Assembly: GCA_031180405.1 (NCBI GenBank)
Contig: JAPSLU010000010.1
Coordinates: 1-51,152 of the forward strand
Origin: Bacillus sp. (in: firmicutes)
GTDB taxonomy: Bacteria; Bacillota; Bacilli; Bacillales; Bacillaceae
DNA length: 51,152 bases
Reading direction: 5' to 3'
Below are positions 6,326-49,667 of this stretch, one piece after another. How positions within the stretch are numbered: the first letter of the stretch is position 1; every line of letters starts with the position of its first letter. The notes beneath the pieces were generated by a model. The model saw only the letters and a program-made list of their open reading frames with translations, was not told the DNA's origin and did not search any database. Position numbers and translations under genes: made by a program.

Positions 6326-6441
6326 GACTAGTGTCAAAAGGTCAAGGAAATTTATTTTGAGTGGCGTCAAAAGGTCAAGGAAATTTATTTTGACTAGCGT
6401 CAAAAAGATTCAAGGAAATTTATTTTGACTGTCGTCAAAAA
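6326..6441 (+). repeat. 33-35 bp tandem repeat between tRNA-Glu and tRNA-Asp
   Basis: There are three units, at 6326-6358, 6359-6391 and 6392-6426, then a partial fourth to 6441. Each starts GA(C/G)T and carries GTCAAAAGGTCAAGGAAAT or a close variant, ending TTTATTTT. The repeat fills nearly the whole spacer in the tRNA transcript. No coding function is supported; the frames crossing it also run through the tRNA genes. Confidence 0.9.
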
Positions 6442-15850: not shown

Positions 15851-16330
15851 ATGAACATTGCTATTATTACAATTGGAAAACTAAAAGAAAAATACTTAAA
15901 GCAAGGAATTGATGAATACTTAAAGCGCTTAACATCCTATGCTAAAGTAGACGTTATTGAATTACCCGATGAAAAAGCTCCAGAAAATCTAAGCGGAATT
16001 GAAATTGAACAAGTAAAAGAAAAAGAGGGAGAAAGAATCCTAAGCAAAATTAGTGACGACACACATGTCATCGCACTAGCTATTGAAGGAAAAATGAAAT
16101 CCTCTGAACAACTGGCTAAAGACTTAGATCAGCTAGCTACATATGGAAAAAGCAAAGTAGCTTTTGTTATTGGGGGATCACTAGGTCTAAGTTCATCTGT
16201 TATGAAGAGAGCGAATGACAGTTTGTCTTTTTCCAAAATGACATTTCCACATCAGTTGATGCGGCTGATTTTATTGGAGCAGGTTTATCGGGCATACAGG
16301 ATTAATCGGGGCGAACCGTATCATAAGTAA
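15851..16330 (+). CDS. rlmH: 23S rRNA pseudouridine-1915 N3-methyltransferase RlmH
   Basis: RlmH is a SPOUT methyltransferase that modifies pseudouridine 1915 in helix 69 of 23S rRNA. It has 159 residues. The knotted SAM-binding region includes [10 protein letters not shown], and the C-terminus is [26 protein letters not shown] precedes the ATG. The last codons (CCG TAT CAT AAG TAA) are the target of SCC-type elements in staphylococci, and copies of this end recur downstream. Confidence 0.97.
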
Positions 16331-16339
16331 ATGAGGTTT
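16315..16339 (+). repeat. rlmH 3'-end attachment-like site (copy A)
   Basis: The 25 bases from ACCGTATCATAAGTAA on, including the rlmH stop, recur exactly at 20112-20136. Diverged copies lie at 18861 and 21734 and a partial match at 47947. This is the position of attB for staphylococcal SCC cassettes. Confidence 0.7.
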
Positions 16340-16766
16340 TTTCAAAAAGAGTAATAGTCATCTCGATCAAGATATAGATCTGTTTTGCCATCTTAACGCT
16401 ACTTCTGCAAGTAGCTAAAAGTGGAAAAAATATCGAAAAATTATACTTAATGTACAAGAAATTCCTTTGTAAAAGCTTATAACTTAATTACCCAAAACTA
16501 AAAAGTACTTGTTATGTAACTATAACAAGTACTTATATTCCCTCTCCTCAAGTGAACATAAGTTTGGAGACGATGGCTTTTAAAAACAATTAAACCAAAG
16601 ATTAGCTATGCTAAAGGGGCAATTTATTACAAGATCAACTGATAACAGAAATCGACCCATTCAACTGAGGAGAAGCAAAATTTTTTGTAGGGATATTGCA
16701 ATAATCTATTTAGTGTAAAATTCTTTGGGAAATAGGTAAAAGACAATAATAATTAATACCACAGCT
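16331..16766. other. Gene-free stretch after rlmH with a perfect inverted repeat
   Basis: No supported gene. AAGTACTTGTTAT (16503-16515) and its complement (16522-16534) form a 13-bp perfect hairpin with a 6-base loop and only a weak T run. A 14-base string CTAAAGGGGCAATT near 16612 recurs inverted near 35728. The rest is AT-rich and has many stops. Confidence 0.6.
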
Positions 16767-17396
16767 CTATTTATTGGTTGTACCATGGCCATTATTCAAG
16801 CTACCATTGAATTTACGATTTAACCCTTTTATAATCAAGTAAATAGGGAAAATCAATTCAAATAGACCTCCTGGAGTAAAGAGCCATATAGGTGCAAGTT
16901 CTGAGATAAGCAATAAAATCGAATATATAAATAAACAGACATATCCTAAAATCCCTAGTCCCATCATCCATTTTGGCGCTAAACTTTTCTTCAGCAAATA
17001 CCAACAATAATAGCTGCTATATCCCCCTAGAGTCAACATAGCTAGTGAGAAGCAAAGTTCCCTGAGCTTGAGAATCGGTTCAATATTTGTTTGAGATATT
17101 AGTAACACGCTTATTGCTCCGATTGCTAATAAAAATCCTTCTATAAATCTTGAAAACATATATCCTTGTATAATTGTTTTATTATAAGACTTTAAACGTT
17201 TAAAACTCAACAAACCAATAATAACAACTACAAAACTATTAATCAATTCAAACCCAATACCTAGTCTTGTGGAAGCTATGTCTTGATGGTCTTGTACCCC
17301 ATTTACAATCATTTGATTGCCAATTGCATAGGTTACCGTCGCTAATAAAAAACAAAACCCAATAATTTTTTCATATCCTCTATACTGTTTTTCCAT
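16767..17396 (-). CDS. DUF4386 family integral membrane protein
   Basis: This 209-residue, very hydrophobic protein has about six transmembrane segments. It starts MEKQYRGYEKIIGFCFLLATVTYAIG and has FSRFIEGFLLAIGAI and YYCWYLLKKSLAPKW in the middle. The pattern fits the DUF4386 family, whose function is unknown. It is transcribed away from the Crp/Fnr-type gene, with 81 bases between the two starts. Such divergent pairing suggests that the regulator controls it, which is an inference. It lies inside the putative first rlmH-linked cassette. Confidence 0.75.
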   Translation of the reverse strand: MEKQYRGYEKIIGFCFLLATVTYAIGNQMIVNGVQDHQDIASTRLGIGFELINSFVVVIIGLLSFKRLKSYNKTIIQGYMFSRFIEGFLLAIGAISVLLISQTNIEPILKLRELCFSLAMLTLGGYSSYYCWYLLKKSLAPKWMMGLGILGYVCLFIYSILLLISELAPIWLFTPGGLFELIFPIYLIIKGLNRKFNGSLNNGHGTTNK

Positions 17397-17477
17397 GTTC
17401 TTTCATTCTCCCTTCAGTAAAGATATAAAAAATACATCATAATATTCTGAAAATTAAAGGTGAAGAGGTGGTCTGCA

Positions 17478-18068
17478 ATGAATAATATCGAAATAGGAAA
17501 ATTGATGATAGTTGAAACATTGAAAAAAATGACTGATTTAAATGATGATGACCTTTCAGAACTGGTAACGAGCATACCTATACAAAAATATAAAAGAGGA
17601 ACAGTCCTTTTAAATCAGGGTGATAAGCCAGATATGAGTTATTACCTCATAATGGGTTGTGTTCGTCAGTATGTCTGTAATGAGCATGGAAAAGAAATCA
17701 CTGTTGATTTATATATAGATGAACAGTCCATCAATATGTTTAGTTATGCTGATGAAGTCGGTGACTCTATGTACAGTCTTGCATGTCTCGAAGACTGTAT
17801 CATGGTATCATGTCCAGAAATTATGACTCGTGACTTAGAAAACACACAACCTGAATTTAGAGATATGCTTAGAATATTCTTCCAAAACCAGTTCACTGTG
17901 TTACAGAAAAATCTTGCAAGCTTTAAGGCACAAACACCAGAAGAAAGATTTCGGGCATTGGTTAAAAATCGTCCAGAACTTCTAAAAAGAGTACCTCAAA
18001 ATATACTGGCAAGCTATTTGAATATCACCCCCGAAACCTTCAGTCGTTATAAAAAAACTTTGACGTGA
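17478..18068 (+). CDS. Crp/Fnr family transcriptional regulator
   Basis: This 196-residue protein has an N-terminal cyclic-nucleotide-binding-like beta roll (about 25-135: YKRGTVLLNQGDKPDMSYYLIMGCVRQYV). A long helix and a C-terminal HTH_Crp motif follow (about 165-195: VPQNILASYLNITPETFSRYKK). No four-cysteine iron-sulphur pattern of classical Fnr is present, so the effector is unknown. The ATG at 17478 follows AGAGGTGG by 7 bases, better than the upstream GTG at 17460. It is divergent from the DUF4386 gene. Two FNR-like palindromes lie nearby, at 18101 and 19146. Confidence 0.88.
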   Translation: MNNIEIGKLMIVETLKKMTDLNDDDLSELVTSIPIQKYKRGTVLLNQGDKPDMSYYLIMGCVRQYVCNEHGKEITVDLYIDEQSINMFSYADEVGDSMYSLACLEDCIMVSCPEIMTRDLENTQPEFRDMLRIFFQNQFTVLQKNLASFKAQTPEERFRALVKNRPELLKRVPQNILASYLNITPETFSRYKKTLT

Positions 18069-18100
18069 TCTTAGAATAGAACATACATGAATATTTTTCC

Positions 18101-18114
18101 TTGATTTGAATCAA
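18101..18114. promoter_or_regulatory. FNR/Crp-type palindrome
   Basis: TTGATTTGAATCAA is an exact TTGAT-N4-ATCAA palindrome 32 bases after the Crp/Fnr-type gene and 65 bases before the next start. It could be an operator for that regulator. Extended by one base each side and followed by TTTTATT it could also act as a weak terminator. Confidence 0.45.
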
Positions 18115-18178
18115 GTTTTATTAATTTTCAAGGTGCATCAGGTGTAAGTGGGTATGTAGTTGTTTCGAGGAGTGACAA

Positions 18179-18442
18179 GTGAAATGGGAGCAAGTATGTG
18201 TAAAATATCCGGAGCAATGGGTACTTGTAGAGGCTATCTCTGCTTGTTCAAAAAACTCGATACATTATCTAGATGATTTATCAGTCATTTCTCACTTCCC
18301 CGATTCAACGCTTGCATGGAAAGAATATAAAAAACTCCATTTAGCTGAGCCTACACGTGAATACTATATTTTTCATACTGACCACAACACAATTGAAGTT
18401 AAAGAACAAAAGTTTATTGGAGTAAAGAAACGACTTCAATAA
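18179..18442 (+). CDS. Small hypothetical protein linked to a retropepsin-like gene
   Basis: This 87-residue protein starts MKWEQVCVKYPEQWVLVEAI, with the mid segment HFPDSTLAWKEYKKLHL and a later YYIFHTDHNTIEVKEQ. The GTG start at 18179 has GAGGAG 6 bases upstream. The pattern resembles small proteins encoded just before retroviral-type aspartic proteases in bacteria. A broken gene of that kind follows 8 bases downstream, which supports the pairing. The function is unknown. Confidence 0.7.
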   Translation: MKWEQVCVKYPEQWVLVEAISACSKNSIHYLDDLSVISHFPDSTLAWKEYKKLHLAEPTREYYIFHTDHNTIEVKEQKFIGVKKRLQ

Positions 18443-18450
18443 AAATTGAG

Positions 18451-18799
18451 ATGTTTGATGGATCACTGATAGTCTAAGTTTCGTTAATCATTAGGAAAGA
18501 CAATGTTTTTAAAGAGGTTCTTTTAGACACTGGTTGTTCCATACCGATCTTTGATACTGATGAAATAGAGGAAATTGGGCTTATTATTGACAGAGCAAAT
18601 GATAGACCAAGAAGAATGTATGGTGTTGGTGGGGAAAGCGAACTTTGCTATGAGAAAATTGTATCCGATTTAAAAATTAGTAACAATTGCTTGATTCCTT
18701 TCAATTACAACTAGGAATAATAAGGGAAACCTATGGATTTAACCGTATTCTTGAAATGATTTTATGATTGATGTCGGTTTAATAATAGATTTATTTTAA
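18451..18799 (+). pseudogene. Retropepsin-like aspartic protease, degraded
   Basis: In one frame from ATG 18451 the sequence reads MFDGSLIV, then an in-frame TAA, then VSLIIRKDNVFKEVLLDTGCSIPIF, which carries the aspartic protease motif LDTGCS. After a frameshift near 18705 the end reads QLGIIRETYGFNRIL and finally DFMIDVGLIIDLF, typical of the C-terminus of this family. At least one nonsense change and two frame changes make it nonfunctional. It was probably cotranscribed with the gene before it. Confidence 0.75.
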
Positions 18800-18860
18800 A
18801 GATATGATAGTTAAATAGAAAAATTTGGTACCTAAAACCTCATTTTGATTAGTTACAGTG

Positions 18861-18886
18861 AACAGTACCATAAGTAAATGAAGTTT
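18861..18886 (+). repeat. rlmH-end-like repeat (copy B)
   Basis: CAGTACCATAAGTAAATGAAGTTTT differs from the rlmH-end copy at 16318 mainly by TAC for TAT and A for G after ATGA. It therefore still encodes Tyr-His-Lys-stop. Its first 17 bases recur exactly at 47947-47963. Confidence 0.6.
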
Positions 18887-18902
18887 TACTACTAGGAAAG
18901 GG

Positions 18903-18951
18903 AAAAAAAGCAGTTGTTCCTAAAGGGTTTCAATAATCGCCTTTTAGGAAC
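18903..18951 (-). terminator. Terminator of the 46-aa membrane protein gene
   Basis: GTTCCTAAA-GG (18916 on) pairs with CCTTTTAGGAAC (18940-18951) with one bulge. Read on the minus strand, it is followed by a run of seven T (the A run at 18903-18909). Confidence 0.7.
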
Positions 18952-19084
18952 AGTTTTGATCTGATATATAGATATAACCATAGGAAAAAGCTGCAGCAAT
19001 TGCCATGATGAGAAGTGATACGTCAGCAATCAGAGCATTTTTTCTCTGATTCGATATATTATTTTGATTTTCATAGGTAGCCAT
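18944..19084 (-). CDS. 46-aa single-pass membrane protein
   Basis: The small open frame encodes MATYENQNNISNQRKN, then a hydrophobic segment (about 18-41: ALIADVSLLIMAIAAAFSYGYIYI), then SDQNCS. GGAGG lies 9 bases before the ATG on the minus strand, and a terminator overlaps the stop. A real short gene is therefore likely although no homologue is recognised. It lies inside the putative second cassette. Confidence 0.65.
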   Translation of the reverse strand: MATYENQNNISNQRKNALIADVSLLIMAIAAAFSYGYIYISDQNCS

Positions 19085-19407
19085 TTTATACTAACCTCCA
19101 TTTTCTTTTGTAAGTTAAGTTTAAATGGAGGATTATCATCGAGCATTGACTTAAGTCAAGAAATTGTATTATTTAATCAAATCAATACAAGCTGGACAGA
19201 GAATTTAGATATTCTCTGTCTTTTTAATTTTATCTAGGTTTTTCATGGATTCAAATTCTTTTTGAGTAGACTGTATTAGTGTCACTACTTATAAATGTTC
19301 ATAATTCAAAAAGTTTTACATTAACTTATTGGGTCACCTTTTTGTTGTTTTTCATATTATAAATGCGAATTGGAGTTTTATAAATTTATAAATTGGAGGA
19401 AGCATTT
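19085..19407. other. Intergenic stretch with an FNR-like palindrome and an orphan terminator
   Basis: TTGACTTAAGTCAA (19146-19159) is a perfect palindrome of FNR/Crp type. GACAGAGAA (19195-19203) pairs with TTCTCTGTC (19212-19220) and is followed by TTTTT, a good terminator on the plus strand without an intact gene before it. ATG at 19120 after AAGTTTAA opens only nine codons. The upstream gene may have decayed. Confidence 0.6.
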
Positions 19408-20088
19408 ATGAACAATTTTTACAACCCGTATTACTATCCGAGTACTTATTATGTTCAGTCAGATTATTATGAGGATCCTTATTATATGTCTTTTCGACAA
19501 ATAGATTTGGGTACTTATTGGGAAGTGAATGAAGGTGGATGGAGAGGTGTATGGATACGAAGAGGGAATGGCAATGTCTTTGATGCAACGTGGACCAGAG
19601 CAGGGGAACGACCGATTACCGCTGTTTTGAGAATGCGATTGCAGGACAATTTTGTATGTATATCACGCAGAAATAGCAGTGACGGAAATGACTGTCAGTA
19701 TGTAGGAAGAATTGAAGGAAGAAGAGTAACAGGGTTTAACATTTGTAACACTGGAGGTGGTCCTTGGACCGGTACAATACACAGAGGGCCTCGAGTACCG
19801 GATTTAGGAAGAAGATGGGAAGAAGAGGAAGGTGGATGGAGAGGTGTATGGACCCGTCGGGGAAACAGCAACATCTTTGATGCAAGATGGACTAGAGCTG
19901 GTGCTACCCCTGTTACCGCAGTATTAAGGGTGGAACAACAGGGTAACAATATTCGGATTGAACGACGGAACAGCAGTGATGGAAATAACTGTAATTACAC
20001 TGGTAGAATTGAAGGAGCGAGAGTAACCGGTACTTATACCTGTGACCAAGGAGGAGGTAATTGGAGCGCTACAATATTTTATGAGTAA
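19408..20088 (+). CDS. Protein with two tandem copies of an unrecognised 95-residue domain
   Basis: This 226-residue protein has a Tyr-rich start (MNNFYNPYYYPSTYY), then two copies of one domain at about 33-127 and 132-226, about 60 of 95 positions identical. Each copy carries GGWRGVWxRRGN, FDAxWTRAG, TAVLR, RRNSSDGNxC, GRIEG and GGGxW. No signal peptide or membrane segment is evident. Trp/Gly-rich alternating segments suggest a beta-rich fold. The ATG at 19408 is about 7 bases after GGAGGA; the TTG at 19393 overlaps that site. Function is unknown. It is flanked by rlmH-end-like repeats. Confidence 0.8.
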   Translation: MNNFYNPYYYPSTYYVQSDYYEDPYYMSFRQIDLGTYWEVNEGGWRGVWIRRGNGNVFDATWTRAGERPITAVLRMRLQDNFVCISRRNSSDGNDCQYVGRIEGRRVTGFNICNTGGGPWTGTIHRGPRVPDLGRRWEEEEGGWRGVWTRRGNSNIFDARWTRAGATPVTAVLRVEQQGNNIRIERRNSSDGNNCNYTGRIEGARVTGTYTCDQGGGNWSATIFYE

Positions 20089-20111
20089 ATTAGTAAAAGT
20101 TCGGTAGGAGG

Positions 20112-20136
20112 ACCGTATCATAAGTAAATGAGGTTT
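20112..20136 (+). repeat. rlmH 3'-end repeat (copy C), exact
   Basis: Identical over 25 bases to 16315-16339, including the Tyr-His-Lys-stop codons and the following ATGAGGTTT, but with no rlmH gene attached. It marks a likely cassette junction 24 bases after the duplicated-domain gene. Confidence 0.75.
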
Positions 20137-20154
20137 ATTAACATTTAAATTAAA

Positions 20155-20185
20155 GGAGAAGGTAACAATTCAATCTACCTTCTCC
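20155..20185. repeat. Perfect 10-bp inverted repeat
   Basis: GGAGAAGGTA (20155-20164) and TACCTTCTCC (20176-20185) form a hairpin with an 11-base loop just after repeat copy C. No T run follows on the plus strand. On the minus strand a short TTTAATTT follows, so it may weakly terminate the minus-strand frame at 20264. Confidence 0.5.
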
Positions 20186-20263
20186 TAAGATGAATATAAT
20201 AAAAAGATAATTATATGGAAAGCTTATGTATTTTTGGTTACGTCTATTTAAAAATCATTAATC

Positions 20264-20533
20264 TTAGCTATACAATTTGCTATATAACAATAGTGATCTT
20301 ATCACACCTGATTGAGAATAACTTGGCATTCCAATCCCTCTTGGTCGACCTTTGTGAAGGGTTGCTAGGAGAGTTTTAACTTGAATTGAGCGTATGAAAG
20401 AATTTCTATTAGGAGGAGCCCATGTCTTTGTCTTGACTAAGGTATTACCTTTATGAGTAACGACTTCATATATTCCATAGCCTTCAATATACCTCGTACT
20501 GTTTAATGAAATAATTTCCCCGATTTGCCCCAA
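20264..20533 (-). CDS. Hypothetical protein or gene fragment
   Basis: The frame encodes VVTHKGNTLVKTKTWAPPNRN, SIQVKTLLATLHKGRPRG and ends SGVIRSLLLYSKLYS. It is open upstream of the TTG at 20533 (SYSGIVQEKLGQ) to a stop near 20570, without a clear ribosome site. I do not recognise it. Composition looks protein-like, so it may be the remaining part of a decayed gene. Confidence 0.3.
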   Translation of the reverse strand: MGQIGEIISLNSTRYIEGYGIYEVVTHKGNTLVKTKTWAPPNRNSFIRSIQVKTLLATLHKGRPRGIGMPSYSQSGVIRSLLLYSKLYS

Positions 20534-20644
20534 CTTCTCTTGAACTATTCCACTGTAAGAAAATAGGCTAGGCTAGTGAATTAACTAGTTATATTAAAAA
20601 CCTCATATAGCTCTACCTCAAACGAACCATAAATAGCAAAAAGT

Positions 20645-20690
20645 ATACGATAAAAGCCGGTACTAATAATAGTGACGGCTTTTATCGTAT
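20645..20690. repeat. Perfect 15-bp inverted repeat
   Basis: ATACGATAAAAGCCG (20645-20659) and its exact complement (20676-20690) enclose a 16-base loop. The CGGCTTTTATCG end makes it look like a bidirectional terminator. A perfect TATAAT lies just downstream at 20708-20713. The gap 20534-20753 holds nothing else recognisable. Confidence 0.6.
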
Positions 20691-20753
20691 TTAAACTGTC
20701 TTTAAACTATAATTGTTAATAGGTATAAACAACATTTATTAGTAAAGGGAGTA

Positions 20754-20858
20754 ATGATTTTGAAGATTTTAAGAATATTAATATATGGTTTTGTGTTAGT
20801 AAATATTTTTGGGTTACTTTACTGGATTACTACAATGTTAATAGACTTATTTAATTAA
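20754..20858 (+). CDS. 34-aa hydrophobic peptide
   Basis: The short frame reads MILKILRILIYGFVLVNIF, then GLLYWITTMLIDLFN, essentially one membrane helix. AAAGGGAG is 8 bases before an in-frame TTG at 20760; the ATG at 20754 is closer to it. TATAAT at 20708 could be its -10. It might be a small membrane protein or toxin-like peptide. No homologue is recognised and chance cannot be excluded. Confidence 0.4.
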   Translation: MILKILRILIYGFVLVNIFGLLYWITTMLIDLFN

Positions 20859-20866
20859 AATACGAT

Positions 20867-21403
20867 TTAAAAGTTATTAAATAACCTTTCTTTCTTAGAT
20901 TGTAGGGAAAAGGTTGTTTCTCCTTTGTTTATACTAATGGTGAACAAAGTAACCCAATTAAAATACTTATCTAAACTGAAGTAATAAATATATGTTCTAA
21001 AATTAATTAATAAAAATGCATTTGTATAGAGAATAAGGCTTATTAAATTTATATTCCCAGATAGGATAAAGTTTATATGCATAAAAAGGCAAACAAGGAT
21101 AGAAGGGATGGTGAATAAACCTGCTATAAGAAATATTCCAAGTATAATTTGAACAATTGGTATAACATAGTTAAAAACCAGTAGATGCTCTAAAGCGATA
21201 TTCTCTATGAAAGTCTTATAAAAGAGTGGGACATTAGACTGCTGTAATGAATTTATAAGGTATTCTCTCAAAAATATACCCGGTTCTTTAAACCATAATT
21301 TATCCGTAATTTTGGTTACTCCTGCCAAAAACCAACCCAATCCAAAAAGCATTCGCGTTAAAACAATCATTGATGGTAACAGTTTTGCATTTTTAATTTT
21401 CAT
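20867..21403 (-). CDS. DoxX-like membrane protein
   Basis: This 178-residue protein has four to five membrane segments. The N-terminal pattern RMLFGLGWFLAGVTKITDKLW, with FLREYLINSL and a later IPIVQIILGIFLIAGLFT and LFMHINFILSGN, fits the DoxX/DoxD family. Members act near respiratory or sulphur redox enzymes, but the role of this one is not known. GGAGGAG precedes the ATG on the minus strand. It is convergent with the 34-aa peptide gene. AAAGGTTATTTAATAACTTTT over its stop may be a weak terminator. Confidence 0.7.
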   Translation of the reverse strand: MKIKNAKLLPSMIVLTRMLFGLGWFLAGVTKITDKLWFKEPGIFLREYLINSLQQSNVPLFYKTFIENIALEHLLVFNYVIPIVQIILGIFLIAGLFTIPSILVCLFMHINFILSGNINLISLILYTNAFLLINFRTYIYYFSLDKYFNWVTLFTISINKGETTFSLQSKKERLFNNF

Positions 21404-21534
21404 CTAAATACTCCTCCGTAATTTTGATTTTCCTCAGTGCATTTTTTTTGCCCAAGGGAAACTTTATGGGTAAAAAAATTTGTTAGCTTAGACTTGCGCT
21501 ATTGATATTTTTCTTTAATTATATGTCTTATCTG

Positions 21535-21723
21535 TCAAAATGTTTCCTTTGTACAAAATACTTTACCAAACACAAAATTTATTGTAAATAGATATTTAGA
21601 TGTAAAAGTGTATGAAACTAATGAATAGTTTAAGTCATTAAATATCCCCACAATATTATGGAGTGGTGGTTTTAAATATATAAAAACTTTTTGCTCAAAT
21701 TCAACTATGTCCTTTGGTGACAT
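21535..21723 (-). CDS. Hypothetical 62-aa protein
   Basis: The frame encodes MSPKDIVEFEQKVFIYLKPP, then LHNIVGIFNDLNYSLVSYTF and a C-terminal FGKVFCTKETF. AAGGTG lies 7 bases before the ATG on the minus strand. Repeat copy D begins 11 bases upstream of the start, so the junction would have replaced any older upstream sequence. Not recognised; possibly a remnant. Confidence 0.35.
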   Translation of the reverse strand: MSPKDIVEFEQKVFIYLKPPLHNIVGIFNDLNYSLVSYTFTSKYLFTINFVFGKVFCTKETF

Positions 21724-21733
21724 TCACTGCACC

Positions 21734-21755
21734 TTACCATAAGTAAATTAAGTTC
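21734..21755 (+). repeat. rlmH-end-like repeat (copy D)
   Basis: TTACCATAAGTAAATTAAGT keeps TAC CAT AAG TAA and most of the following bases found in copy B. It is the most diverged of the four clustered copies. Confidence 0.5.
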
Positions 21756-21774
21756 TATTTATAAAGGAAAAACT

Positions 21775-21978
21775 AGTCCTTGAATTCAGTGAAGATGGAA
21801 AGGGGTTAATACCTGGAGAAGAGGAAAAAGTTTTTGAACGATTTTATAGTAGAGAACGGTTCTGGAGCTGATCTATCTATTACAAAGGATATTATTGGGG
21901 AGTATGGTGGGCTATATTATGGCTTAACCGAATCAATCTATAGGGGCAACACGTATCTCTATTCCTAAAAGAATGTAA
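21775..21978 (+). pseudogene. Sensor histidine kinase, C-terminal remnant
   Basis: Three frames joined by two frameshifts give LEFSEDGKGLIPGEEEKVFERFYSRE, then GSGADLSITKDIIGEYGG, then GATRISIPKRM. These are the G1, F and G2 boxes and the end of a histidine kinase ATPase domain. The dimerisation part and sensor are missing, directly after repeat copy D. The gap 21979-22172 that follows has no supported gene. Confidence 0.8.
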
Positions 21979-23075: not shown

Positions 23076-24377
23076 ATGAAGAAATTATACGGATTTTTAA
23101 TTATGATGATTGCACTTTTTATTGTTTCTGCATGTAGTTCAACAGAATCAGCTGGAACAGAAAACAAGGAGAATTCAAATGAAGCTTCCGCGACCGAGGA
23201 TAAAATAGAGATTAAGTTTTGGTATGCATGGGGAGATAAAATAGGTGAAAATAATGAAAATCTTGTAAAAATGTTTAATGAATCACAGGATAAAATCCAT
23301 GTAACTGCAGAATATCAAGGTACATACGATGAACTTCATGCAAAAACACAGGCTGCATTTGCTGCAAAAAATGCACCAGAAGTGACAATGAATGAAATAG
23401 CATCAATCGGCGTATTTGCAAAGTCAGGTATGACACAGGATTTAACTCCTTTTATCGAGCGAGATGATATTAATTTAGATGACTTTAACCCTGGTCTTAT
23501 GGGTAACTCTTATGTAGATGACAAACTTTATGGACTTCCATATTTGCGTAGTACCCCAATTCTTTATATGAATACTACTTTGTTAGAAGAAGCAGGTTTA
23601 GATCCAGCAGGTCCAAAGGATTGGACTGAATTTGAAGAATATCTACGTGCCCTTACTAAAGGCGAAACAGTTGGAATGACAATGCCGGTGGACATTTGGA
23701 TGTATGAAGCATTTGTTGCACAAGGAGAAGGAAAAATGCTGTCTGACGATGCGTCTCAAGTAGCATTCAATGAAAAAGCCGGTGTCGAAGCACTTGAATT
23801 TTGGAAAAAACTAGAGAAAGAAGGCTTAATTAAAATTCCTGGCGGCGAAGAAGCAGGAGAAGTTAAGAAACAGGATTTTGCAAATGGTCGTTCGGCGATG
23901 ATTTTCTCATCTACAGCTGATCTTTCATACAATTTAAGTGTTGCAGAGGAACAAGGCTTTGAATTAAATACAGCATTTATGCCGGCCAATAAAGTGCATG
24001 GTGTCCCAACTGGCGGTGCTAACCTTGTTATGACAGCAGGACTTGATGAAGAAAAACAAAATGCAGCATGGGAATTTATTAAATGGATGACAGCGACAGA
24101 ACAAACAGTTTATGCAAGCTCGTATACAGGATATCTGCCTAGCCGTCTTTCTGCAATTGAGACAGAAGAAATGCAGAATCTATATAAAGAAAAGCCGCAA
24201 TTTAAAGTAGCAGTTGATCAATTGCAATATGGTCAAGCACGTCCAATGGTTGAAGCGTATCCGGAAATATCTAAAATCATAATGGATGAAATTTCTCGAA
24301 CAATTTTAGAAGATCTTAAACCACAGGATGCCTTAGATGCAGCAGCTGAAAAGGCAAATAAATTGCTTGAAAAATAA
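23076..24377 (+). CDS. ugpB: ABC transporter substrate-binding lipoprotein, glycerol-3-phosphate type
   Basis: This 433-residue extracellular solute-binding protein of family 1 has the lipobox VSAC with Cys20. The mature part has IEIKFWYAWGDKIGENNENL, KNAPEVTMNEIASIGVFAKSG, LPYLRSTPILYMNTTLLEEAGLDP and AWEFIKWMTATEQ. The pattern is closest to UgpB, which binds sn-glycerol-3-phosphate or glycerophosphodiesters. The downstream glycerophosphodiesterase and upstream glpP support that substrate, although maltose- or sugar-type binding proteins are related. GTGAGG precedes the ATG. Confidence 0.88.
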   Translation: MKKLYGFLIMMIALFIVSACSSTESAGTENKENSNEASATEDKIEIKFWYAWGDKIGENNENLVKMFNESQDKIHVTAEYQGTYDELHAKTQAAFAAKNAPEVTMNEIASIGVFAKSGMTQDLTPFIERDDINLDDFNPGLMGNSYVDDKLYGLPYLRSTPILYMNTTLLEEAGLDPAGPKDWTEFEEYLRALTKGETVGMTMPVDIWMYEAFVAQGEGKMLSDDASQVAFNEKAGVEALEFWKKLEKEGLIKIPGGEEAGEVKKQDFANGRSAMIFSSTADLSYNLSVAEEQGFELNTAFMPANKVHGVPTGGANLVMTAGLDEEKQNAAWEFIKWMTATEQTVYASSYTGYLPSRLSAIETEEMQNLYKEKPQFKVAVDQLQYGQARPMVEAYPEISKIIMDEISRTILEDLKPQDALDAAAEKANKLLEK

Positions 24378-47742: not shown

Positions 47743-47979
47743 ATGGTGAACCTTTTTTTAACAGACCGTTACCTACACCTAAAAGAACAACTTACTTCGA
47801 TTACTAATAAAATTGAAATTCAGATTCGCCCCGATGGAAAAGTGCTGATTAACGGCATGATACGAGACATAGACTTAAGAACTGAAAATGAATTTTACAT
47901 GGTAGATTTGGTAACGCAAAGGGACAGGAAGAAACCACTGGAGATAAACAGTACCATAAGTAATGGTAAAATTAACTAA
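47743..47979 (+). CDS. Hypothetical 78-aa protein, possibly a chimeric or truncated frame
   Basis: The frame encodes MVNLFLTDRYLHLKEQLTSI and IEIQIRPDGKVLINGMIRDI and ends NSTISNGKIN. No convincing ribosome site precedes the ATG. The preceding interval (47640-47742) also contains a protein-like stretch (VAWIEYLSHEITPNVVVFKE) in another frame, so a decayed gene is possible. The last residues are encoded by the rlmH-end-like match at 47947. Not recognised. Confidence 0.35.
   Translation: MVNLFLTDRYLHLKEQLTSITNKIEIQIRPDGKVLINGMIRDIDLRTENEFYMVDLVTQRDRKKPLEINSTISNGKIN
47947..47963 (+). repeat. 17-bp match to rlmH-end repeat copy B (copy E)
   Basis: AACAGTACCATAAGTAA is identical to 18861-18877 and includes TAC CAT AAG TAA. 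The bases after it differ. It lies 33 bases upstream of the thiamine operon promoter, at the far border of the variable region. It may be a cassette end or a coincidence. Confidence 0.4.
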
Positions 47980-48397: not shown

Positions 48398-49090
48398 ATG
48401 TCATTTTCTCAATTGTTGCGTAAAGAAGTAAATTCTATTTGGGAAGCAAGTTTTCATCATCCGTTTGTGAAAAAGCTTGGTGAAGGAAGCTTAGATTTAG
48501 AATGTTTCCGTTATTATGTTTTGCAAGATTCTTATTATTTAAGTCATTTTGCTAGAGTGCAAGCTTTGGGAGCAGCAAAGGCAAATGATTTAGAAACAAC
48601 AAATCTCATGGCACAACATGCCCAAGGTACATATAAAGCGGAGCTAGCTTTACATCGCAATTTTTCTGAAAAGTTAGGTATTTCAATTGAAGAAAAAAAC
48701 ACTTTTGAACCTGCACCGACAGCTTATGCATATACATCTCACTTGTATCGTGCCGCATATGAAGGTCATTTAGGAGATATTATAGCAGCCATTTTACCAT
48801 GCTACTGGCTCTATTATGAAATTGGCGAACTATTGAAAGGATCCAAACCAGATGAGCCAATTTATCAGGAATGGATTGCAGCCTACGGCTCTGAGTGGTT
48901 CCGAGCTTCTGTTGAAGAACAAATTGCTCGATTAGACGCTATTGCAGAAACAGTTACAGAAGCAGACAGAGAACGAATGAAACAACATTTTGTTTTGAGT
49001 AGCCAATATGAATATTCATTCTGGGAGATGGCCTACACACTAGAAAATTGGCCAGTTGAAAAAAAGGAGATAGAAGAATATGCAAAATAA
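48398..49090 (+). CDS. tenA: Thiaminase II (aminopyrimidine aminohydrolase)
   Basis: TenA salvages thiamine breakdown products by hydrolysing aminomethylpyrimidine to HMP. It has 230 residues. The nucleophile is C135 in ILPCYWLYYEIG. The substrate-binding acid is in FRYYVLQDSYYL, and the C-terminal Glu region is YEYSFWEMAYTLENW. AGGAGGG precedes the ATG. It is the first gene after the TPP riboswitch and overlaps ykoE by 11 bases. Confidence 0.96.
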   Translation: MSFSQLLRKEVNSIWEASFHHPFVKKLGEGSLDLECFRYYVLQDSYYLSHFARVQALGAAKANDLETTNLMAQHAQGTYKAELALHRNFSEKLGISIEEKNTFEPAPTAYAYTSHLYRAAYEGHLGDIIAAILPCYWLYYEIGELLKGSKPDEPIYQEWIAAYGSEWFRASVEEQIARLDAIAETVTEADRERMKQHFVLSSQYEYSFWEMAYTLENWPVEKKEIEEYAK

Positions 49091-49667
49091 TAAAGGTTTA
49101 AAACTAGGAGATATTTTAACAACTGTTGTCATTGCGATTGTTTTTGGAATTGTTTATAAACTGTGGGGGCCACTCTACTATTTTGTAAAACCGCTTGGAT
49201 TACATCTTGACCAATTAATTTATGGTATGTGGTTTATTGCTGCCACGGTAGCATTCTTAATTATCCGCAAGCCGGGGGTAGCGCTGCTTGCTGAAATAGC
49301 CGCTGCTTCTGCTGAATTTATTACAGGTTCTGAATGGGGACTAGAAGTACTTATTTATGGAGTTATACAAGGATTGTTTGCTGAAATTATTTTTGCGATA
49401 TTCCTATACAAACGTTTTGATTTATTCGTTGTTTCATTGGCTGCAGCAGGGTCTGCCCTTGGATCATTAATTATGGACTTTTATAAAGGATACGTTGGAG
49501 AGCTTGCAGCTTGGAATCTTACTCTATTTATCGGTGCGCGTTTTATTGGGGCAATCGTACTCGCGGGATTCTTTGCTTACTATCTAGTAAAAGCACTCGA
49601 GGCTACAGGTGTTACACAGCTCGTCCGACCAGCATCGAAAGAGGATTATGAAGCGTTAGATCGCTAG
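49080..49667 (+). CDS. ykoE: Thiamine-precursor ECF transporter S component YkoE
   Basis: This 195-residue membrane protein has about six helices (GDILTTVVIAIVFGIVYKLWG, GMWFIAATVAFLIIRKPG, EFITGSEWG). It is the substrate-binding subunit of the YkoEDC transporter, thought to take up HMP or related precursors. AAGGAG lies inside the end of tenA and the coding regions overlap. The TPP riboswitch controls it. Confidence 0.93.
   Translation: MQNNKGLKLGDILTTVVIAIVFGIVYKLWGPLYYFVKPLGLHLDQLIYGMWFIAATVAFLIIRKPGVALLAEIAAASAEFITGSEWGLEVLIYGVIQGLFAEIIFAIFLYKRFDLFVVSLAAAGSALGSLIMDFYKGYVGELAAWNLTLFIGARFIGAIVLAGFFAYYLVKALEATGVTQLVRPASKEDYEALDR

Follow-up and report, generated by a model that had tools for sequence, protein, structure and literature searches.

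We analyzed a 51,152-nucleotide stretch of DNA from Bacillus sp. (contig JAPSLU010000010.1; the whole stretch is called the window here) and found that the DNA 3' of rlmH, from 16.3 to 21.7 kb, is a tandem row of four small cassettes without a recombinase. rlmH itself (15851..16330, forward strand) is the only rlmH in the genome. Its open reading frame (ORF) is intact and ends Tyr-His-Lys-stop at 16330, and its 3' end serves as the attachment site on the chromosome. The core TAYCATAAGTAA occurs at 16319, 18866, 20116 and 21735, each time on the rlmH strand and with an ATGAGGTT-like tail. These copies lie in site 1 (16313..16340, +), where the rlmH end is joined to a left end of type A (ATGAGGTTTT), site 2 (18860..18887, +), site 3 (20110..20136, +) and site 5 (21729..21756, +), the last of the compact array. 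Identity to 16300-16340 was 78% for 18847-18887, 73% for 20097-20137 and 61% for 21716-21756. A fifth, degenerate copy, site 4 (20619..20636, +), was recognized by alignment with homologous cassettes in genomes G001 and G014 and locus L085; its site-matrix score of 6.3 was under the threshold.

The original prediction for this DNA had rested on two of these copies. It noted that 16315-16339 recurs unchanged at 20112-20136, within site 3, and proposed that the 3.8 kb in between were a single element of the staphylococcal cassette chromosome (SCC) kind, inserted at rlmH and either non-autonomous or a remnant. The identity was confirmed over exactly 25 bp, and the repeat is beyond chance, since 100 first-order Markov shuffles of the window contained no exact repeat above 19 bp (mean of the longest, 15.8 bp). 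The rlmH-end pair is surpassed in length by a 28-bp repeat, part of a tandem array that lies at 6.3 kb between tRNA genes. While the two copies are indeed identical, the rlmH end is present as a family with five site copies in the window, and a single 3.8-kb element was rejected on account of the sites inside and beyond that stretch, which divide it and extend the array to 21.7 kb. An SCC-like, non-autonomous insertion targeted to rlmH in a Bacillaceae host was upheld; among the best 80 of 582 relatives, the nearest named rlmH was that of Metabacillus halosaccharovorans (94% identity).

The four cassettes measure about 2.5, 1.25, 0.5 and 1.1 kb, three with type A ends and one with type C. Cassette 1 (16327..18865; 2.5 kb, type A at both ends) encodes a 209-aa DUF4386 family membrane protein (16767..17396, -; PF14329, E 4.7e-15), a 202-aa Crp/Fnr-type regulator with a cyclic-nucleotide-binding domain (17460..18068, +; PF00027, E 6.1e-8) and an 87-aa ORF, and it bears an inverted right-end motif of type A at 18834..18847 (+; AAAACCTCATTTTG). 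Cassette 2 (18874..20115; 1.25 kb) has a type A left end and a 231-aa ORF with an internal repeat (19393..20088, +), to which no Pfam or NCBIfam entry matched; the protein consists of two similar halves with a common GGWRGVW stretch. Cassette 3 (20124..20624; 0.5 kb) is of type A at both ends, with its inverted right-end motif at 20596..20610 (+; AAAAACCTCATATAG), and holds a deleted gene piece that is whole in a G001 cassette as a 628-aa GH15-type gene. Cassette 4 (20633..21734; 1.1 kb, type C) carries a single membrane-protein gene (20867..21403, -) ahead of an inverted right-end motif of type C at 21703..21717 (+; AACTATGTCCTTTGG). Its 178-aa product had no Pfam match and looked DoxX-like by eye. 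SCC-type direct repeats together with inverted right ends are thus present for cassettes 1, 3 and 4.

Sites and end types in Bacillales

Of the 99 Bacillales rlmH loci that we compared (21 from genomes of the genus, 78 from elsewhere, with 1-18 kb per locus), 42 had at least one further site, including 13 of the 21 within the genus, the window among these. Loci L034, L035 and L036 duplicate the records G005, G009 and G068; the first two were left out of the 99 loci and the third out of the pair counts. Among the best 80 of 582 rlmH loci, a search with the extended site pattern, allowing six mismatches at most, gave 26 matches downstream on the rlmH strand, one on the opposite strand and none upstream. 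The site matrix at a threshold of 14 gave 80 matches downstream on the rlmH strand, one on the opposite strand and none upstream on either strand; the matrix was trained on 76 downstream sites, which makes the downstream count partly circular but not the strand and upstream controls. Exact matches to the 20-bp pattern were present in 24 of 80 genomes of the family, compared with none of the 80 for its reversed control.

Ahead of the site, right ends often show the left end in inverted, imperfect form. For type A the right end is AACCTCATTTAG and the left ATGAGGTT, for type B TTTTTGCCTCT and AGGCAAAAA, and for type C AACTATGTCC and ACAAAGT. The same layout, with inverted repeats, is reported for the attR of the Enterococcus cassette chromosome (ECC; PMC6222049). 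The end-type patterns were defined after inspection of the sites, and up to two mismatches were allowed. Among 97 neighbouring pairs, 51 could be typed (46 with an untyped end were left out), and left and right types agreed in 49 of these; 20,000 shuffles of the right ends gave a mean of 34.2 and a maximum of 43. One of the two mismatched pairs was the 20116-21735 interval of the window, where the degenerate site separates a type A cassette from one of type C.

We also looked at the borders of the array. L076 and L098 have an GGTAAAGCAGAGAGTTGAAGT-like sequence after rlmH, with 2 and 3 mismatches out of 21 and no further site within 2.2 and 4.4 kb. The full elements L220, L208 and L210 have such a sequence after their far site (0-1 mismatches), as do L211 and L223 (4 mismatches). 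Of 20,000 random positions, 91 had 8 or fewer mismatches to it. L056 and L045 have such a sequence too, yet carry further sites downstream. From these alignments, made across species only, the GGTAAAGCAGAGAGTTGAAGT-like sequence is suggestive of an empty site, and it is only suggestive because GGTAAA starts were found on elements with a recombinase as well. No conserved right flank was found, since UgpB (23076-24377) and the YkoE-like gene (49080-49667) had no match at 1e-60 and 1e-30, respectively, in 20 other genomes of the genus. The DNA past the array (22173-51132) may be accessory as well.

Two other groups of site-like sequences were noted. An isolated one at 47952-47963, followed by TGGTAAA, lies 31.6 kb from rlmH within a small reading frame and scored 20.7 with the matrix (controls gave at most one match at 16 or above); it could mark where a larger composite island ends on its far side, or have arisen by chance. 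Two further site-like copies lie at 777 and 2951 of L022 (G000:C323), a contig of the window's own genome without rlmH, where they flank LysR-type and PhzF-family genes, the copy at 2951 being the exact 20-bp pattern. The assembly is an estimated 6.5% contaminated, so this contig may or may not come from the same organism.

Recombinases and shared cassettes

No large serine recombinase was found in the 21.7 kb downstream of rlmH. The original prediction that Ccr is absent held for the array, and no CcrB-like enzyme was found among those recombinases of the window's genome, which is 89% complete, that were scored. That genome has nine resolvase-domain and four recombinase-domain matches. Scoring with the Ccr models took in C56 and C352, the two of full length, and left out C132, which is cut by a contig end, and C198, whose frame is in two parts. 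Both scored candidates were rejected as own-genome mobilisers (112.5 bits to CcrB versus 93.3 to XisF for C56, and 141.5 versus 162.4 for C352). A scan of six array ORFs gave no match to an integrase, such as the tyrosine integrase that integrons have beside the array.

End types A and C, present in the window, also occur in other Bacillales on full elements that encode CcrB-like recombinases. In G008, type A ends 17.4 kb apart enclose genes for a DNA methylase, a RadC-like protein, a P4-family primase, a 203-aa resolvase N-domain protein and a 575-aa recombinase, the last with 408 bits to CcrB (model cut-off 900). The gene for the 203-aa protein (L182, 11291-11899), which has the resolvase N-domain only, directly precedes the CcrB-like gene, and of the seven remaining recombinase-bearing type A elements, five likewise gave a second match; the 203-aa protein may be a reduced CcrA-like partner. 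A recombinase search of 397 genomes of the order gave at least 19 matches in 18 genomes at 1e-120, a lower bound given that three candidates were scored per genome shown (3 of 19 candidates for the window's genome, on which the search therefore says little). The top five of these matches were 95-98% identical and came from four other families. In the recombinase tree, the type A clade had 11 rows with support of 100/100; all eight rows with a readable left end were of type A, and of the remaining three, two show type A at the right end. Type C was represented by three rows, which formed one clade, and the left end was untyped in 9 of the 45 rows of the tree.

Full elements and small cassettes with the same ends differ in size. 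Of 40 A-A pairs, 8 had a recombinase and spanned 11.3-18.3 kb, while 32 had none and spanned 0.2-9.7 kb; the full elements came mostly from the recombinase-based search, and hence their share is not a frequency. The typed cassettes without ccr (n=35, cassette 1 of the window included) had a mean of 2.8 ORFs of at least 80 aa, on both strands. Across the 99 rlmH loci, a recombinase started within 2 kb at 12 of 13 type B left ends versus none of 39 type A left ends, and in the 1-18 kb available per locus G008 was the single one of the 39 type A loci with a recombinase, which lies further in. In L179 (G006) we noted separately a type B element, 0.2-1.7 kb 3' of rlmH, with its recombinase split over three reading frames; a 9.7-kb type A interval comes next.

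Cassettes also recur between genomes. Cassette 4 aligned with inter-site DNA of three other species, namely in G001 (the first unit after rlmH), in G014 (the third unit) and, 8.6-9.7 kb downstream, in Alkalihalobacillus deserti L085; similarity to all three faded at the sites. Old core sequence present in all relatives, an outcome that the original prediction named as counting against it, was not what we saw: the gene of cassette 4 was found in 3 of 80 genomes of the family, the window's included, and downstream of rlmH each time. Cassettes running from site to site in both partners were shared by G001 and G068 (2.46 kb, 90.8% identity; rlmH 77.1%) and by G001 and G004 (1.36 kb, 93.1%; rlmH 76.1%), and they stood at different array indices. 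Homology ended on a site in both loci in 10 of 565 cases, with about 0.2 expected from site density. A part of cassette 2 (18978-19163) recurred 3' of rlmH in L078 with 81% identity. No match to 16315-21800 was found in the plasmid and phage collections.

Cargo was surveyed on a small scale, with 10 proteins of one array (G001) and 5 of G008. The G001 array carries a radical SAM/SPASM protein, an ABC ATPase with a Peripla_BP_2 protein, a Cass2-family effector-binding protein with an HTH regulator, a GH15-type protein, a sulfotransferase, and a set of PEP mutase, an Ada-type protein and a DNA glycosylase.

Origin of the array

We consider it probable that the array consists of SCC-like cassettes without ccr that were brought in by site-specific recombination and most likely moved in trans. 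Judging from the anatomy and the comparisons, each cassette would join at the rlmH end by site-specific recombination, which would keep rlmH whole and leave one site copy per junction. A full element in the same cell, at present or in the past, would supply a large serine recombinase related to CcrB, and such recombinases would insert and excise the cassettes in trans. We infer both this insertion by type-matched recombinases and the present mobility of the cassettes; what we observed are the sites, the ends, the tandem layout, the sharing of some cassettes and the agreement of end type with recombinase clade. Our confidence is held at this level because the evidence from the empty site and from the homology ends is weaker than it appeared at first sight.

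Several observations weigh against this reading. Homology ended on a site in either locus in 28 of 565 cases, which is near the expectation from site density, and only 2 of 569 homology chains ran from site to site in both loci. The gene pair of cassette 1 is also present in the rlmH region of G007 (85% DNA identity), with the similarity ending before the sites. In L078, a piece like the regulator of cassette 1 and pieces like cassette 2 keep the same order and no site was found to separate them, an arrangement that would fit joint descent equally well. Neither the window nor its genome, as far as scored, holds a recombinase. Two of the four cassettes appear partly decayed, and cassette 2 has no recognizable inverted right end. 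One observation counts both ways. An L072 element without a recombinase has its right 2.4 kb in common with the G174 full element (97.9% up to the site; rlmH 74.4%), which links small and full elements in support of our reading, and because of this shared right arm some units without ccr are plainly deletion forms of full elements.

The last of these points also favours a decayed composite island, in which successive full SCC-like elements lost the recombinase and other genes by deletion and the cassettes are immobile leftovers between sites. The common right arm is what internal deletion predicts, cassette 3 is a deleted form of the larger G001 cassette, and composites and pseudo-SCC are described in the available portions of PMC10061031 and of the staphylococcal work. 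On the other hand, intact cassettes of 1-2.5 kb recur from site to site at other array positions and in other species with identities above that of rlmH, and 32 of the 40 A-A pairs are small and without a recombinase, so that we regard decay of this kind as unlikely, though it is the alternative to be taken most seriously. Homologous recombination, with incoming rlmH-region DNA exchanging through the short sites and the flanking core genes and no site-specific enzyme, would account for the many shared stretches that end away from sites in these loci, and natural transformation of SCCmec is reported in the accessible part of PMC9072672. Matched inverted end types, and the co-segregation of end type with recombinase clade, would not be expected from it. 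Moreover, at 20-25 bp the sites offer little length for homologous exchange. We find this explanation improbable. As for a chance repeat or a short regulatory motif, the AT-rich composition of the sites was the only point found in its favour; the shuffles reached 19 bp at most, there are several copies, and the sites stand downstream of rlmH and not upstream in many species, with the reversed pattern in 0 of 80 genomes. It can hardly be entertained.

The array works like SCC and ECC. As in SCC, including composite and pseudo-SCC forms, insertion is at the rlmH end with the coding end kept, site copies stand at the junctions, the right end has an inverted motif, units are stacked in tandem, and full relatives of the window's cassettes encode CcrB-like enzymes elsewhere. 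Unlike SCC, the host group is another one, the cassettes are about 0.5-2.5 kb without ccr, and the 408 bits of the full-element recombinase fall under the cut-off of the CcrB model. The cassettes are therefore pseudo-SCC-like, having the site and end features and lacking ccr. ECC, as far as it is described in the accessible text of PMC6222049, shares the rlmH 3' region, the direct repeats, an attR with inverted repeats and an TATCATAA core, whereas it has ccrAB and the window array has none. Additional att copies within a staphylococcal cassette appear in the available part of PMC8407400. The original prediction knew of no described system in this group. This did not stand, as islands at rlmH that encode large serine recombinases are already published for Bacillus, Planococcus, Paenibacillus and others, going by the accessible portion of PMC10061031, in which most polymerase-SSB pairs lie downstream of rlmH, many with a second rlmH-end repeat and some as composites. 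Those islands share with the array the chromosomal site, the host phylum and composites with several rlmH-end repeats; they were found via polymerase-SSB genes and carry recombinases, whereas the cassettes of the window are small and without ccr. Small cassettes of that sort, and end types, do not feature in this portion of the paper. Arrays of small cassettes without ccr in Bacillaceae were not found in the literature searched (titles and abstract openings, with preprints and most subscription papers outside its scope). The array also resembles integron arrays in its rows of small units of one to a few genes between recombination sites, in an order that varies by genome, but it has no integrase, its ends suit serine recombinases, and its genes lie on both strands.

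More tentatively, and with slightly more doubt than belief, we suggest that the rlmH end in Bacillales may be a shared exchange port, integron-like but based on serine recombinases, in which several recombinase lineages would each have their own end type and enzyme-free cassettes would cross genera, stacked and reordered by entering full elements. SCC elements carry methicillin resistance, and how SCC-like elements gain cargo is, to our knowledge, an open matter. If Bacillales do keep arrays of small cassettes without ccr whose ends match full-element recombinases, the step from free cargo to element would become testable in bacteria that are harmless, the rlmH regions of environmental Bacillales would be a place to seek sources of SCC-type cargo, and the arrays would provide natural data on the ends accepted by each CcrB lineage.

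Outside the rlmH region, the 28-bp exact repeat mentioned above belongs to a short tandem array (GTCAAAAGGTCAAGGAAATTTATTTTGACT-like) at 6333-6430, between the tRNA-Glu and tRNA-Asp genes, which we take to resemble CtsR boxes.

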